Of a stretch of DNA of 64,000 nucleotides, positions 59,974 through 64,000 are shown piece after piece (the first letter of the stretch is position 1; each line of letters opens with the position of its first letter). Made by a program: the position numbers and the translations under genes. Below the pieces are notes generated by a model. That model was given only the letters and a program-made list of their open reading frames with translations, was not told the origin of the DNA and ran no database searches. This stretch comes from Bacteroidota bacterium. Lineage in GTDB: Bacteria > Bacteroidota > Bacteroidia > Chitinophagales > Chitinophagaceae. The DNA lies in assembly GCA_018267955.1 (NCBI GenBank), contig JAFDXL010000008.1, forward strand, positions 372,001 to 436,000, written 5' to 3'.

Positions 59974-60750
59974 ATGCGTGCTATATGGAGCGGCGCCATC
60001 GGCTTTGGCCTGGTAAATATTCCCATCAAATTATACAGTGCTATAGAAGATAGCACCTTAGATCTTGATATGCTGGATAAGAAAGATCATGCGAATATCA
60101 AGTTCCAGCGTGTCAATGAGAATACGGGCAGGGTAGTGAAATGGGAAGATATCGTTAAAGGGTATAAGTACAATGACGATTATGTTGTATTAGAGGATGA
60201 AGACTTTGAAAAGGCGAACCCGGAAAAAAGCCATGTGATTGCTATTAACGAATTTGTGAAGGAAGATAGCATCTCGAGTATGTACTACGAGAACGTTTAT
60301 TATGCTGAACCCGCAAAGGGGGGGGAACGTGCCTATGCATTGCTTAGAGAGGCACTAAAAGAAAGTGATAAAGTAGCGTTGGGTAGTTTTGTGATGCGCA
60401 CCAAAGAGAATTTCTGTATGCTGAAGGCAGATGGTGATGTGGTGCTACTGCTGAAATTGAGATTTCCGCAGGAGATCCGCGATAGCAAGGAAGTTGCCGC
60501 TCCGGCAAAAACATCCGTAAAACCTGCTGAACTGAAAATGGCACTAGCCCTTATTAATCAGCTTACACCGAAGAAGTTTGATATTACCAAATATAAAGAC
60601 ACCTATACAGATGCTTTGATGAAGATAATAGAATCAAAAGCTAAGGGCAAACGCATAGCTAAGCCAAAGTTCAAAATTGTGCATAACAAGACAAAAGACA
60701 TCATGGCGCAATTGAAAGAAAGCATCGAGAAAAGTAAAAAAGCATCCTGA
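59974..60750 (+). CDS. ku: Bacterial Ku, DNA end-binding protein
   Basis: Ku forms a ring dimer that binds double-strand DNA ends and recruits LigD for non-homologous end joining. The 258-residue protein starts MRAIWSGAIGFGLVNIPIKL, the family signature, and includes RVNENTGRVVKWEDIVKGY and YYAEPAKGGERAYALLREAL. A Lys-rich C-terminal tail follows, as is usual for bacterial Ku. Its TGA overlaps the ATG of the LigD phosphoesterase ORF (TGATG... with the A shared), so translation is coupled. Confidence 0.96.
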   Translation: MRAIWSGAIGFGLVNIPIKLYSAIEDSTLDLDMLDKKDHANIKFQRVNENTGRVVKWEDIVKGYKYNDDYVVLEDEDFEKANPEKSHVIAINEFVKEDSISSMYYENVYYAEPAKGGERAYALLREALKESDKVALGSFVMRTKENFCMLKADGDVVLLLKLRFPQEIRDSKEVAAPAKTSVKPAELKMALALINQLTPKKFDITKYKDTYTDALMKIIESKAKGKRIAKPKFKIVHNKTKDIMAQLKESIEKSKKAS

Positions 60751-61358
60751 TGAGCCTGTCGAAATACAACCAGAAACGAAATTTTAATGATACACCGGAA
60801 CCTGCCGGAAAAGCACGTAAAGCAGACAGCAAGTTGATATTTGTGGTGCAACGCCACCATGCGTCCCATTTGCATTACGATTTTCGCCTGGAGTTAAACG
60901 GTGTTCTTCTAAGCTGGGCTGTTCCTAAAGGTCCTTCGTTAAACCCCGCGGATAAAAGATTAGCTATGATGGTGGAAGATCACCCGCTTGACTATGCAAC
61001 CTTTGAAGGAGACATACCGGAAGGTAACTATGGTGCTGGTCATGTGGATGTTTGGGACCATGGCACTTATGAGCCGGTGAATGAAGAAAGCGAAACCATT
61101 ACTCCAAAAGAATTTAAAAGTAATCTTCATAAAGGCAGCATTAAATTCAGGATGAAGGGCAAACATCTTAAAGGTGAATTTGCTTTAGTGAAACTGAAAA
61201 GAGGACAGGAAGATAACAGCTGGCTACTGATAAAGCATCGTGATAAATACGCAACAGACGAACCATACAACAGCGAAGACTATGCAAAGAAAAGTTCGCT
61301 GAAGTACACAGAAGCACGGAATAATCGCCGGGGTTTAAAAAAAAAGTCAACTCCATAA
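60750..61358 (+). CDS. ligD: LigD N-terminal 3'-phosphoesterase domain (first part of frameshifted ligD)
   Basis: This 202-residue ORF is the 3'-phosphoesterase (PE) domain of LigD, which trims 3' ends before joining. FVVQRHHASHLHYDFRLELNG carries the catalytic His and Asp. WAVPKGPS and GNYGAGHVDVWDHGTYEP are also conserved. The ORF ends LKKKSTP shortly after an A9 run. A -1 slip at A AAA AAG (61340-61346) would continue directly into the ligase-polymerase ORF and give an 839-residue protein, the size of full PE-ligase-polymerase LigD. Ku overlaps its start by one base. Confidence 0.92.
   Translation: MSLSKYNQKRNFNDTPEPAGKARKADSKLIFVVQRHHASHLHYDFRLELNGVLLSWAVPKGPSLNPADKRLAMMVEDHPLDYATFEGDIPEGNYGAGHVDVWDHGTYEPVNEESETITPKEFKSNLHKGSIKFRMKGKHLKGEFALVKLKRGQEDNSWLLIKHRDKYATDEPYNSEDYAKKSSLKYTEARNNRRGLKKKSTP
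61337..61346 (+). other. Candidate -1 frameshift site (A9 run ending in G) within ligD
   Basis: Nine A followed by G (61337-61346). In the PE frame the codons are TTA AAA AAA AAG TCA ACT CCA TAA, so A AAA AAG lies in the correct phase for -1 slippage, as in E. coli dnaX. A weak downstream stem GACC / GGTC (61361-61364 with 61378-61381) exists. The ligase frame is open from 61325 and its extra residues look like a linker. A real indel or an assembly error in the homopolymer would look the same. Confidence 0.5.
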
Positions 61359-61420
61359 CTGACCCTCCTGATCCTCCGGTCTCACGCGCCCCAAAGGATG
61401 AAAAATATAAGCAGTTTATA

Positions 61421-63268
61421 GTGCCTATGCTTGCACGGCTGCACAATCAAGCTTTTGACAGGAAAGATTGGATATTCGAGATCAAATGGGATGGTTATCG
61501 TGCCATCGCAGAGTTGAACGGAGCTAAAACACGTTTATACTCTCGCAACGGTTTGTCATTTGCAGCTAAGTATCCTGTTGTTTTTGATGAGTTGACAACG
61601 ATCAAAAAGAAAATGATCATAGATGGCGAGATCGTTGCGCTAAACGAAAAAGGAATGCCCGATTTTCAACTACTGCAGCAATACGGAGAAAAGGAAGTGC
61701 CACTCATTTATTATGTATTCGATATTCTTTCCTTAAATGGTAAGTCAACCGAAGATATGCCGCTAATAGACAGGAAAGAACTTCTTAAAAGGTATCTCCC
61801 GGAATCTGAAGTGATCAAATATTGTGATCACATCGCCGAGAAAGGAAAGACTTTTTTTAATGAAGTAAAGAAACAGGGACTGGAGGGCATTATTGCCAAA
61901 AATGCGCAAAGTGCTTATGCTGAAGGTAGCCGCAATGGAGACTGGCTAAAGATAAAACATGTATTAACGGATGAGGCAGTGATAGCTGGCTATACCGCAC
62001 CTCGAAACAGCCGCAAATATTTTGGTGCACTAGTTTTGGGTACTTACGAAAAAGGAAAGCTTACCTATATTGGTCATACAGGTACAGGATTCACTGATAA
62101 GATACTGAAAGACGTATATAGTAAGCTGCAACCGCTTATTACCGATGCTAATCCTTTTGGTAAAAAGGTACCCGTAAATACAGCCGTTACCTGGGTGAAA
62201 CCGGAATTAGTATGTAATCTTAAGTATACGGAGATCACCAAAGATGGTATTCGCAGGCACCCAGTGTTCATGGGCTTACGGGTCGATAAAGCCCCGAAGG
62301 ACGTGCACCGGGAAGCACCTGTGGAAGTGCCGGAATCTAAGACAACAAAACAAACATCAAAACATATGGCAGCCACATCATTGAGCAAAAAGCTCATACT
62401 CACCAACCTTGATAAGGTGTTCTGGCCCGATGAGGGCTACACCAAAGGCGATGTATTGAACTACTACAACAGTGTTTATAAATACATCATCAAGCATATC
62501 AAAGATCGTCCGCAATCCTTGAAACGAACTCCAAATGGTATTAACGGACCTGCCTTCTTTCATAAAGACGCTGGTGAGAACGCTCCCGAATGGATGGATA
62601 CATATCCTACTTATTCAGAGAACGTCCATAAGACGATCGACTACCTGGTATGCAATACAAAAGACGCATTGCTTTACATTGTTAACCTTGGTTGTATTGA
62701 GATCAATCCTTGGAATTCACGGGTGCAGTCGCCAGACCGTCCTGATTACCTCGTACTAGACCTGGACCCGTCCGATAAAAATACATTCGATGAGGTGGTT
62801 GCCTGTGCGCAGGTGATCAAAGAGATATTGGAGCAAGGTGGTGCAGAGAGTTATTGTAAAACATCCGGTTCTACGGGCTTGCATGTTTACCTGCCTCTTG
62901 CTGCTAAATATACTTACGAACAGGCTCGTGATTTTGCGCAAGTGATAGCACAGATGGCACAGGAGCAATTACCTGAATTTACTACTTTGGAACGTTCTCT
63001 TAGTAAGCGTAAGAAAAATCATATTTACATAGATTACCTGCAGAACAAGGAAGGGGCAACTTTGTCTTGTGCCTACAGCCTGCGCCCGAAACCAGGTGCA
63101 CCGGTATCTATGCCGCTGGAATGGAACGAGGTGAAAATGGGTTTAAATCCGCTCGACTTTAATATCAATAATGCTTTGGAACGGATCGAAAAGAAGGGTG
63201 ATATTTTTCTGCCGGTATTAAAGAAGGGAGTAGATATAGTTAAGGTATTAAAGAATTTGGGAGCTTAA
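61421..63268 (+). CDS. ligD: LigD ligase-polymerase domains (second part of frameshifted ligD)
   Basis: Read from the GTG at 61421 this is 615 residues. The frame is open upstream to 61325 with no ATG before the third codon. It has the ATP-dependent ligase with FEIKWDGYRAIAE (nucleotide-binding Lys). The polymerase/primase domain follows at about residues 320-610 (VFWPDEGYTKGDVLNYY, LDLDPSDKN with the metal Asp pair, TSGSTGLHVYLPL). Together with the PE ORF this makes the complete LigD of bacterial end joining. Without frameshifting it would be made alone, as in species with split LigD functions. The nei-like gene follows 10 bp later. Confidence 0.92.
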   Translation: MPMLARLHNQAFDRKDWIFEIKWDGYRAIAELNGAKTRLYSRNGLSFAAKYPVVFDELTTIKKKMIIDGEIVALNEKGMPDFQLLQQYGEKEVPLIYYVFDILSLNGKSTEDMPLIDRKELLKRYLPESEVIKYCDHIAEKGKTFFNEVKKQGLEGIIAKNAQSAYAEGSRNGDWLKIKHVLTDEAVIAGYTAPRNSRKYFGALVLGTYEKGKLTYIGHTGTGFTDKILKDVYSKLQPLITDANPFGKKVPVNTAVTWVKPELVCNLKYTEITKDGIRRHPVFMGLRVDKAPKDVHREAPVEVPESKTTKQTSKHMAATSLSKKLILTNLDKVFWPDEGYTKGDVLNYYNSVYKYIIKHIKDRPQSLKRTPNGINGPAFFHKDAGENAPEWMDTYPTYSENVHKTIDYLVCNTKDALLYIVNLGCIEINPWNSRVQSPDRPDYLVLDLDPSDKNTFDEVVACAQVIKEILEQGGAESYCKTSGSTGLHVYLPLAAKYTYEQARDFAQVIAQMAQEQLPEFTTLERSLSKRKKNHIYIDYLQNKEGATLSCAYSLRPKPGAPVSMPLEWNEVKMGLNPLDFNINNALERIEKKGDIFLPVLKKGVDIVKVLKNLGA

Positions 63269-63278
63269 GATTATTCAT

Positions 63279-64000
63279 ATGCCGGAAGGTCCATCAATTG
63301 TAATTTTAAAAGAGCAGGTACAGCAGTTCAAAGGTAAGCTTGTTACAGAGGTTCACGGCAATACAAAGGTTGATAAGGAACGCTTACGCAATAAGAAGAT
63401 CATTGATTTCAAAAGCTGGGGAAAACATTTCCTTATTTGTTTCAAAGATTTCACGGTGCGAATTCATTTAATGCTGTTTGGCTCCTACCGTATCGATGAA
63501 AGAAAGCCAACTGATGCCCGCCTTGGTCTTGTATTTAAAAATGGTGAACTTAATTTTTACGCATGCTCTGTAGTAATACTGGAGGAAGATTTAGATGAAA
63601 TATATGATTGGAGCGCCGACATCATGTCTGATAGCTGGAGCAATGCAAAAGCCAAAAAGAAGCTAAAAGCAAATCCCGATCAGTTGGTATGTGATGCGTT
63701 GCTCGATCAAAACATATTCGCAGGCTCAGGTAACATCGTTAAAAACGAAGTACTGTTTCGCATTAAAGTACACCCCGCAAGCAGGGTAGGAGCATTACCC
63801 GAAAAGAAATTAAACGAGCTGATTAACGAAACGCACAAATATGCCTTCCAGTTTTACGATTGGAAAAAGAAGTTCGAATTAAAGAAGCATTGGCAGGCAC
63901 ATACCAAAATGATATGCCCGCGTTGCGATATTCCCCTGAAAAAAGAATATCTGGGTAAAACCAACCGGCGAAGCTTTTTCTGTACTAATTGCCAGGAATT
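63279..64000 (+). CDS. Fpg/Nei-family DNA glycosylase (endonuclease VIII-like), runs off the window
   Basis: The 240 visible codons begin MPEGPSIVILKEQVQQFKGK. Pro2 (nucleophile) and Glu3 are the catalytic residues of the Fpg/Nei family, which cuts out oxidised bases and nicks the DNA. The helix-two-turns-helix region reads LLDQNIFAGSGNIVKNEVLF. A zinc finger has CPRC and CTNC before the window ends, so the 3' end is nearly complete. MPEGPSI fits Nei better than Fpg. It lies 10 bp after ligD, so a base-repair enzyme shares the end-joining operon. Confidence 0.88.
   Translation, partial: MPEGPSIVILKEQVQQFKGKLVTEVHGNTKVDKERLRNKKIIDFKSWGKHFLICFKDFTVRIHLMLFGSYRIDERKPTDARLGLVFKNGELNFYACSVVILEEDLDEIYDWSADIMSDSWSNAKAKKKLKANPDQLVCDALLDQNIFAGSGNIVKNEVLFRIKVHPASRVGALPEKKLNELINETHKYAFQFYDWKKKFELKKHWQAHTKMICPRCDIPLKKEYLGKTNRRSFFCTNCQE

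Follow-up and report, generated by a model that had tools for sequence, protein, structure and literature searches.

The ligD locus and its two reading frames

The DNA analysed here, referred to as the window, is a stretch of 64,000 nucleotides from contig JAFDXL010000008.1 of a Chitinophagaceae genome (Bacteroidota bacterium, assembly GCA_018267955.1). Near its end lies ligD, encoding the repair enzyme LigD, which is divided between two reading frames at a run of nine As (A9). Comparison with related loci suggests that this ligD is one gene yielding two proteins by programmed transcriptional slippage on A9, a reading to which we assign a probability of about 0.72. The features on which the argument depends are the following; the run, the heptamer and the phosphoesterase stop are direct readings of the letters.

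59974..60750, + strand: Ku gene, 258 aa (Ku_bact TIGR02772, 4e-86); the TGA that ends it overlaps the start ATG of the phosphoesterase frame
60750..61358, + strand: phosphoesterase (PE) frame of ligD, 202 aa without a slip, C-terminus KKKSTP (LigD_N PF13298, 4e-44)
61325..63268, + strand: ligase-polymerase frame, -1 relative to PE, open from 61325, with a TAA ending at 63268 (DNA_ligase_A_M, DNA_ligase_A_C, LigD_Prim-Pol 1e-88, TIGR02776 3e-168)
61337..61345, + strand: A9, the putative slippage run, followed by G (G61346)
61340..61346, + strand: in-phase A_AAA_AAG heptamer
61356..61358, + strand: TAA stop of the PE-only product
61421..61429, + strand: GTG-CCT-ATG; the ligase frame has no other candidate start (ATG, GTG or TTG) before the PML motif, whose conserved Met is this ATG

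The codons across the slip site read TTA AAA AAA AAG TCA ACT CCA TAA, and the stop ends 12 nt past the G of the heptamer. A single -1 step joins the two frames into 199 + 640 = 839 codons, in which RGLKKK is followed by VNSITDPPDPPV; the sequence across the PE/ligase junction of the joined product is KKKVNSITDPPDPP. An earlier note, made from the letters of the window, had placed the end of the PE open reading frame (ORF) 12 nt after the A9, had found the ligase-polymerase frame open back to 61325, upstream of its GTG start, and had proposed both the 839-residue product of a -1 slip and the phase of the heptamer, all of which agree with our reading. In the ORF list of the window, the ligase-polymerase frame appears as a 615-aa ORF running from the GTG at 61421.

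Over the two frames the LigD domain set is complete (PF13298, PF01068, PF04679 and PF21686, for PE, ATP-dependent ligase and primase-polymerase), and the gene for the partner protein Ku adjoins ligD upstream. The locus thus resembles a conventional three-domain LigD in having PE, ligase (LIG) and polymerase (POL) in that order behind Ku, and differs from it in that PE and LIG-POL lie in different DNA frames. The single uninterrupted reading frame that is missing from the window is found in 121 of the 182 distinct ligD loci that we compared.

Conservation of the A run among split loci

Matches to PE were found in 137 of 294 genomes in a family sample and in 66 of 298 in an order sample; within the window's genus, eight of 15 genomes had a match, five of them split and three fused. 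The loci taken for classification were the short-frame places among the family-sample matches listed, 40 fused places, and the best 80 of 591 named loci. The fused loci are a sample, made up of the 40 fetched and those arriving with the searches. Before any counts were made, 24 loci with no ligase match within 1500 bases were set aside (22 distinct; two duplicate pairs). A total of 201 loci were classified, and removal of 19 duplicates left 182. Relative to PE, the ligase frame is at -1 in 51 of these (the window included; hereafter -1 splits), fused in 121, at +1 in seven and in frame after a stop in three.

We found a run of at least nine As (A≥9) in 50 of the 51 -1 splits, and all 50 runs lie inside the span that is open in both frames. 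The longest run is A9 in 38 loci, A10 in 12 and A6 in one (L040); lengths of seven or eight never occur. Elsewhere A≥9 is present in one of the seven loci with ligase at +1 and in none of the three with ligase in frame after a stop (together 1/10), in none of the 24 PE loci that no ligase domain follows (longest run 4-8), and in 50 of the 121 fused loci sampled. Among out-of-frame loci with A≥9, 50 are at -1 and one is at +1. Of the 50 splits with A≥9, 39 loci represent two families and 22 genus codes within them; the other 11 are named records, namely six of Chryseobacterium, one of Niabella, one of Chitinophaga qingshengii, two metagenome-assembled genomes (MAGs) named Chitinophagaceae or Bacteroidetes, and an Acidobacteriaceae MAG (L219). 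Aligning relatives, the check that the earlier note proposed, showed that neither run nor split is private to the window: in seven loci of its genus (five split, two fused) TAAAAAAAAAG is the same throughout, with divergent sequence on either side, and an eighth (L008), which is fused, has A9 too.

In the -1 splits the base after the run may be G, C or T, and the run itself takes any of the three codon phases; for this reason we rejected exact codon phase as the key feature. The in-phase A_AAA_AAG heptamer of the window recurs in 31 of the 50 -1 splits with A≥9. What is conserved, as judged from these loci, is the length of the run and not the heptamer. The earlier note had left three readings standing, namely programmed frameshifting, transcriptional slippage, and a real or artefactual indel. 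Since A9 or A10 lies in the overlap of 50 of the 51 -1 splits, the last of these, artefact or private indel, is refuted, and programmed recoding in one form or the other is supported; neither plain fission nor a random indel would lead one to expect a shared run. We conclude from the comparison that the split is not a private indel and that it reflects conserved recoding.

Some individual loci are described here in their own right. L219, from outside the Bacteroidota, has an A10G run, a -1 ligase frame and a 383-nt linker. L152 (Paenimyroides ummariense) has an A12 run with ligase at +1, and a -1 ribosomal slip would be unable to join its frames. L022 has A8 with ligase at +1, and its relatives L024 and L148 have A9 and -1; L022 may have lost an A or contain a sequencing error. 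L040 has an ATGA in which a ligase-frame ATG overlaps the PE stop, as in an ordinary coupled split. The PE loci that were set aside are not all stand-alone: in L033, L057 and L067 PE is followed by frames that look POL-like by eye, with no ligase domain match between; in L086 it is followed by a C-terminal piece of ligase; and L070 and L075 are close to the end of a contig.

Excess of runs over expectation

Synonymous codons in the joined linkers were redrawn by each locus's own codon usage as a null model. By this codon resampling, 19.1 of the 51 -1 split linkers are expected to contain A≥9 and 50 do, and 16.8 are expected to have a longest run of seven or eight and none does; the corresponding numbers with A≥9 for the 121 fused linkers are 27.3 expected and 50 observed. 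In the -1 splits A≥9 occurs at 4.9 per kb in linkers, compared with 0.08 per kb in the PE domain and 0 per kb in the ligase domain. The A run thus appears, under this model, to exceed what a lysine-rich linker gives.

The A9 of ligD is the sole A or T run of at least nine in the window. The 4.18-Mb assembly contains 26 distinct runs of this kind (from 36 overlapping matches), which is 7 to 13 times fewer than the 182-327 expected by Markov extrapolation from the window, and by inspection only the run in ligD joins two long open frames. The longest of the 26, an A16 at G000:C10:826900-826915, follows a 200-codon open frame.

Entry into the ligase frame

No ATG, GTG or TTG occurs between the opening of the ligase frame and the PML Met in 27 of the 51 -1 splits; the others have GTG or TTG only (13 loci) or an ATG (11 loci). 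Sequence changes between the PE stop and the PML Met were counted by ligase-frame codon position in codon alignments that were built on the ligase-frame translation and so lean toward that frame, and 166 of 334 changes (17 pairs) fell at third positions. The share in single pairs reaches 11/13 in L009/L010, 14/16 in L151/L156 and 11/16 in L154/L168, although L010 and L151 do carry TTG or GTG before the PML Met. The loci without a start, taken alone, gave 73/165 changes at third positions (P = 0.002 by a binomial test that takes changes as independent; seven pairs, of which the 17 include four). The ligase domain itself is under purifying selection, with 11, 6 and 60 changes at codon positions 1, 2 and 3 in the pair L003/L004.

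These results need to be interpreted cautiously. The third-position excess is absent in several pairs, for example L018/L019 (7/22) and L007/L027 (11/32), and because the alignments favour the ligase frame we regard the excess as support and not as proof. Some possible ligase-frame start is present in 24 of the 51 -1 splits, and the window itself has two, the GTG at 61421 and the ATG at 61427. On balance, translation probably reaches the ligase frame from PE.

Proposed transcriptional slippage and its alternatives

In the mechanism that we favour, RNA polymerase copying the A9 would sometimes insert extra As, their number being 1 or otherwise congruent to 1 modulo 3. On the unslipped message ribosomes would stop 12 nt later and release free PE of 202 aa; on a message with one added A they would continue in the ligase-polymerase frame, and the product would be full PE-LIG-POL LigD of about 839 aa. 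Comparison of loci shows the two frames, the conservation and direction of A≥9 and signs of coding constraint upstream of any ligase-frame start; from these we infer slippage at the RNA-polymerase step, its ratio and a use for free PE. According to the part of a review of slippage covered here, bacterial RNA polymerase slips efficiently on nine As or Ts (PMC5009743), and for a large proportion of genomes a second paper (PMC1088944) reports, in the portion covered, that selection against runs sets in at a length of nine.

The title of the earlier note pointed instead to programmed -1 ribosomal frameshifting at A_AAA_AAG in the manner of E. coli dnaX, by which PE and full LigD would be made in a set ratio. 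This is the most serious alternative, and we consider it unlikely. In its favour, an exactly in-phase heptamer occurs in the window and in 31 of the 50 -1 splits with A≥9, and the ligase lies at -1 in 50 of the 51 out-of-frame loci with A≥9. The heptamer is absent in phase, however, from the other 19 of the 50 (A9G in phase 0 or 1, A10C, A10T, A10G in phase 0 or 2), and a 7-nt site has no need of nine As, yet runs of seven or eight are missing where 16.8 are expected. The frameshift in E. coli dnaX makes use of stimulators, a Shine-Dalgarno (SD)-like element upstream and a hairpin downstream. An SD-like motif lies within 16 nt upstream in only two of the 51 -1 splits. For the next 60 nt downstream, the mean fold z is -0.39 in the 51 -1 splits and -0.29 and -0.15 in fused controls; z is below -2 in four of the 51 and is -0.34 in the window. 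As a group, hairpin or SD stimulators were rejected, single loci such as L007 (z -3.4) being matched by similar controls. The window's genome has both tRNA-Lys(UUU) and tRNA-Lys(CUU) (30 of 34 tRNA matches were read). In the review of slippage, the sole tRNA-Lys of E. coli is said to make A_AAA_AAG shift-prone, and the presence of two Lys tRNAs is suggested as a reason for RNA-polymerase slippage in Thermus thermophilus dnaX (PMC5009743). Transcriptional slippage, the second option of the earlier note, is the best fit, because A≥9 is near-invariant, the heptamer is confined to 31/50, runs of seven or eight are absent, SD and hairpin signals are absent and two Lys tRNAs are present; of the two programmed mechanisms the dnaX-type slip is the weaker, and both could act together.

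Several observations weigh against this preference. The argument from tRNAs is not general, as the best match to tRNA-Lys(CUU) in 25 split genomes is a CUU tRNA in only 14, with tRNA-Lys(UUU) in three and other tRNAs in eight; some of these 11 genomes may read AAG with tRNA-Lys(UUU) alone, which would favour ribosomal frameshifting. Every run of nine holds an in-phase A_AAA_AAA or A_AAA_AAG, so that a ribosome can slip on A9 too. Insertion of one A leads to the -1 frame, but the -1 direction suits a ribosomal slip equally well. Linkers rich in KKK would by themselves yield many A9 runs, as the 19.1 of 51 under codon resampling indicate.

The remaining alternatives are considerably less probable. 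If ordinary gene fission had occurred, the ligase-polymerase would be translated alone, either from GTG 61421 or ATG 61427 or through coupling at the PE stop; we consider this improbable, although both codons are near the start of the ligase domain, the ATGs upstream of the PML Met in 11 of the 51 -1 splits include some that overlap the PE stop, and L040, with A6 and its ATGA overlap, resembles true coupling. The 27 loci that lack a start before the PML Met, and upstream codons that look constrained in the ligase frame, argue against fission, which also leaves unexplained why A≥9 occurs in 50/51 -1 splits and in 0/24 PE loci without a ligase domain. A shade less probable still is phase variation, in which gain and loss of bases from the A9 tract at the DNA level would turn full LigD on in some cells and off in others. 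The fused or split state has changed at least 20 times among 169 scored loci (a minimum count on a FastTree tree), and L018 and L019 (A9, split) are a single A apart at the run from L021 (A10, fused), which shares their genus code. If a tract toggled by +1 and -1, however, both out-of-frame states would be expected, and across species these were seen 50 times at -1 and once at +1; moreover, the A9 split is common to species of one genus code (L003, L004, L007, L009 and L010; also L036 and L039). Sequencing error or a decaying pseudogene is scarcely credible: homopolymers are error-prone, and L022 (A8, +1) is possibly such a case, but 50 distinct loci, each from a different genome, agree in the kind of run and in direction, matches to the expected domains are present and the ligase domain is under purifying selection.

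Fused relatives and the proposed second product

We compared the run with the split/fused state in 15 supported independent fused/split pairs. On average the run is unchanged in 9.1 of these and changes with the split in 5.9, and it never changes against the split. In the 50 fused loci with A≥9, the first stop of the slipped (-1) frame follows the run at a median of six codons, and no selection for early stops in that frame was found (mean percentile 0.48 against codon resampling). As these stops come no earlier than codon usage predicts, the excess of runs is all that suggests output of free PE from fused genes, which we treat only as a possibility. A wider proposal is that the A run serves bacteroidotal end joining as a recurrent switch between two products, with slippage supplying the other product whether the DNA is split or fused and with the ratio under selection; we offer this tentatively, at somewhat less than even odds.

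Free PE is a plausible product because PE genes without a ligase domain behind exist in relatives. The window's genome contains a second LIG-POL gene without PE (L002, at G000:C6:36727-39971; ORF 28-2124, 698 aa, domains by eye), which free PE could assist. Downstream of ligD, at a distance of 10 nt, a gene for an Fpg/Nei-like DNA glycosylase begins at 63279 (63279-64000 within the window) and is perhaps on a common transcript.

Known systems and implications

The best known cellular case of programmed slippage is dnaX. As in T. thermophilus dnaX, described in the parts covered of PMC5009743 and PMC1088944, the split ligD has A9 in the sense strand, two products proposed for one gene, and two Lys tRNAs. 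In the Thermus gene, by contrast, the unslipped message gives the long product and here it would give the short one; gene and phylum are also different, and the present case is known from DNA alone. The window shares the in-phase heptamer with E. coli dnaX; unlike that gene, ligD has no SD or hairpin signal, the heptamer is unconserved and a second Lys tRNA is present. A parallel in layout is provided by Citrobacter rodentium tssM1 and Yersinia pseudotuberculosis tssM3, where, in the part covered of PMC4256274, a stop soon follows the poly-A tract and full length is restored by added As. A relative has the opposite polarity at a poly-A tract, so that Citrobacter and Yersinia between them show both polarities for tssM. 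The tssM case differs in having A11, in concerning a secretion gene and in that, according to that paper, slippage was demonstrated by blots, green fluorescent protein fusions and mass spectrometry.

Programmed poly-A slippage is thus already known as a kind. LigD or DNA ligase as a slippage or frameshift gene was not found in the literature searched, most subscription papers and preprints lying outside its reach; in the part of the slippage review covered 'ligase' is not mentioned (PMC5009743), and in the main text of PMC3711429 the word occurs once, for Mur ligase. According to the part covered of a 2020 survey, which took in about 6,000 complete genomes, all Bacteroidetes positive for non-homologous end joining (NHEJ) have conventional LigD (PMC7719229), a statement that the split ligD sequences, as read here, qualify.

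It would be unusual for a cellular repair enzyme to show programmed slippage that is conserved. If our reading is correct, what looks like a broken ligD, or like two genes, would in many genera be one working gene, and surveys of NHEJ domain architecture would need recounting. The proportion of free PE, an activity of 3'-end healing, to full LigD would then be a testable ratio in the repair of double-strand breaks.

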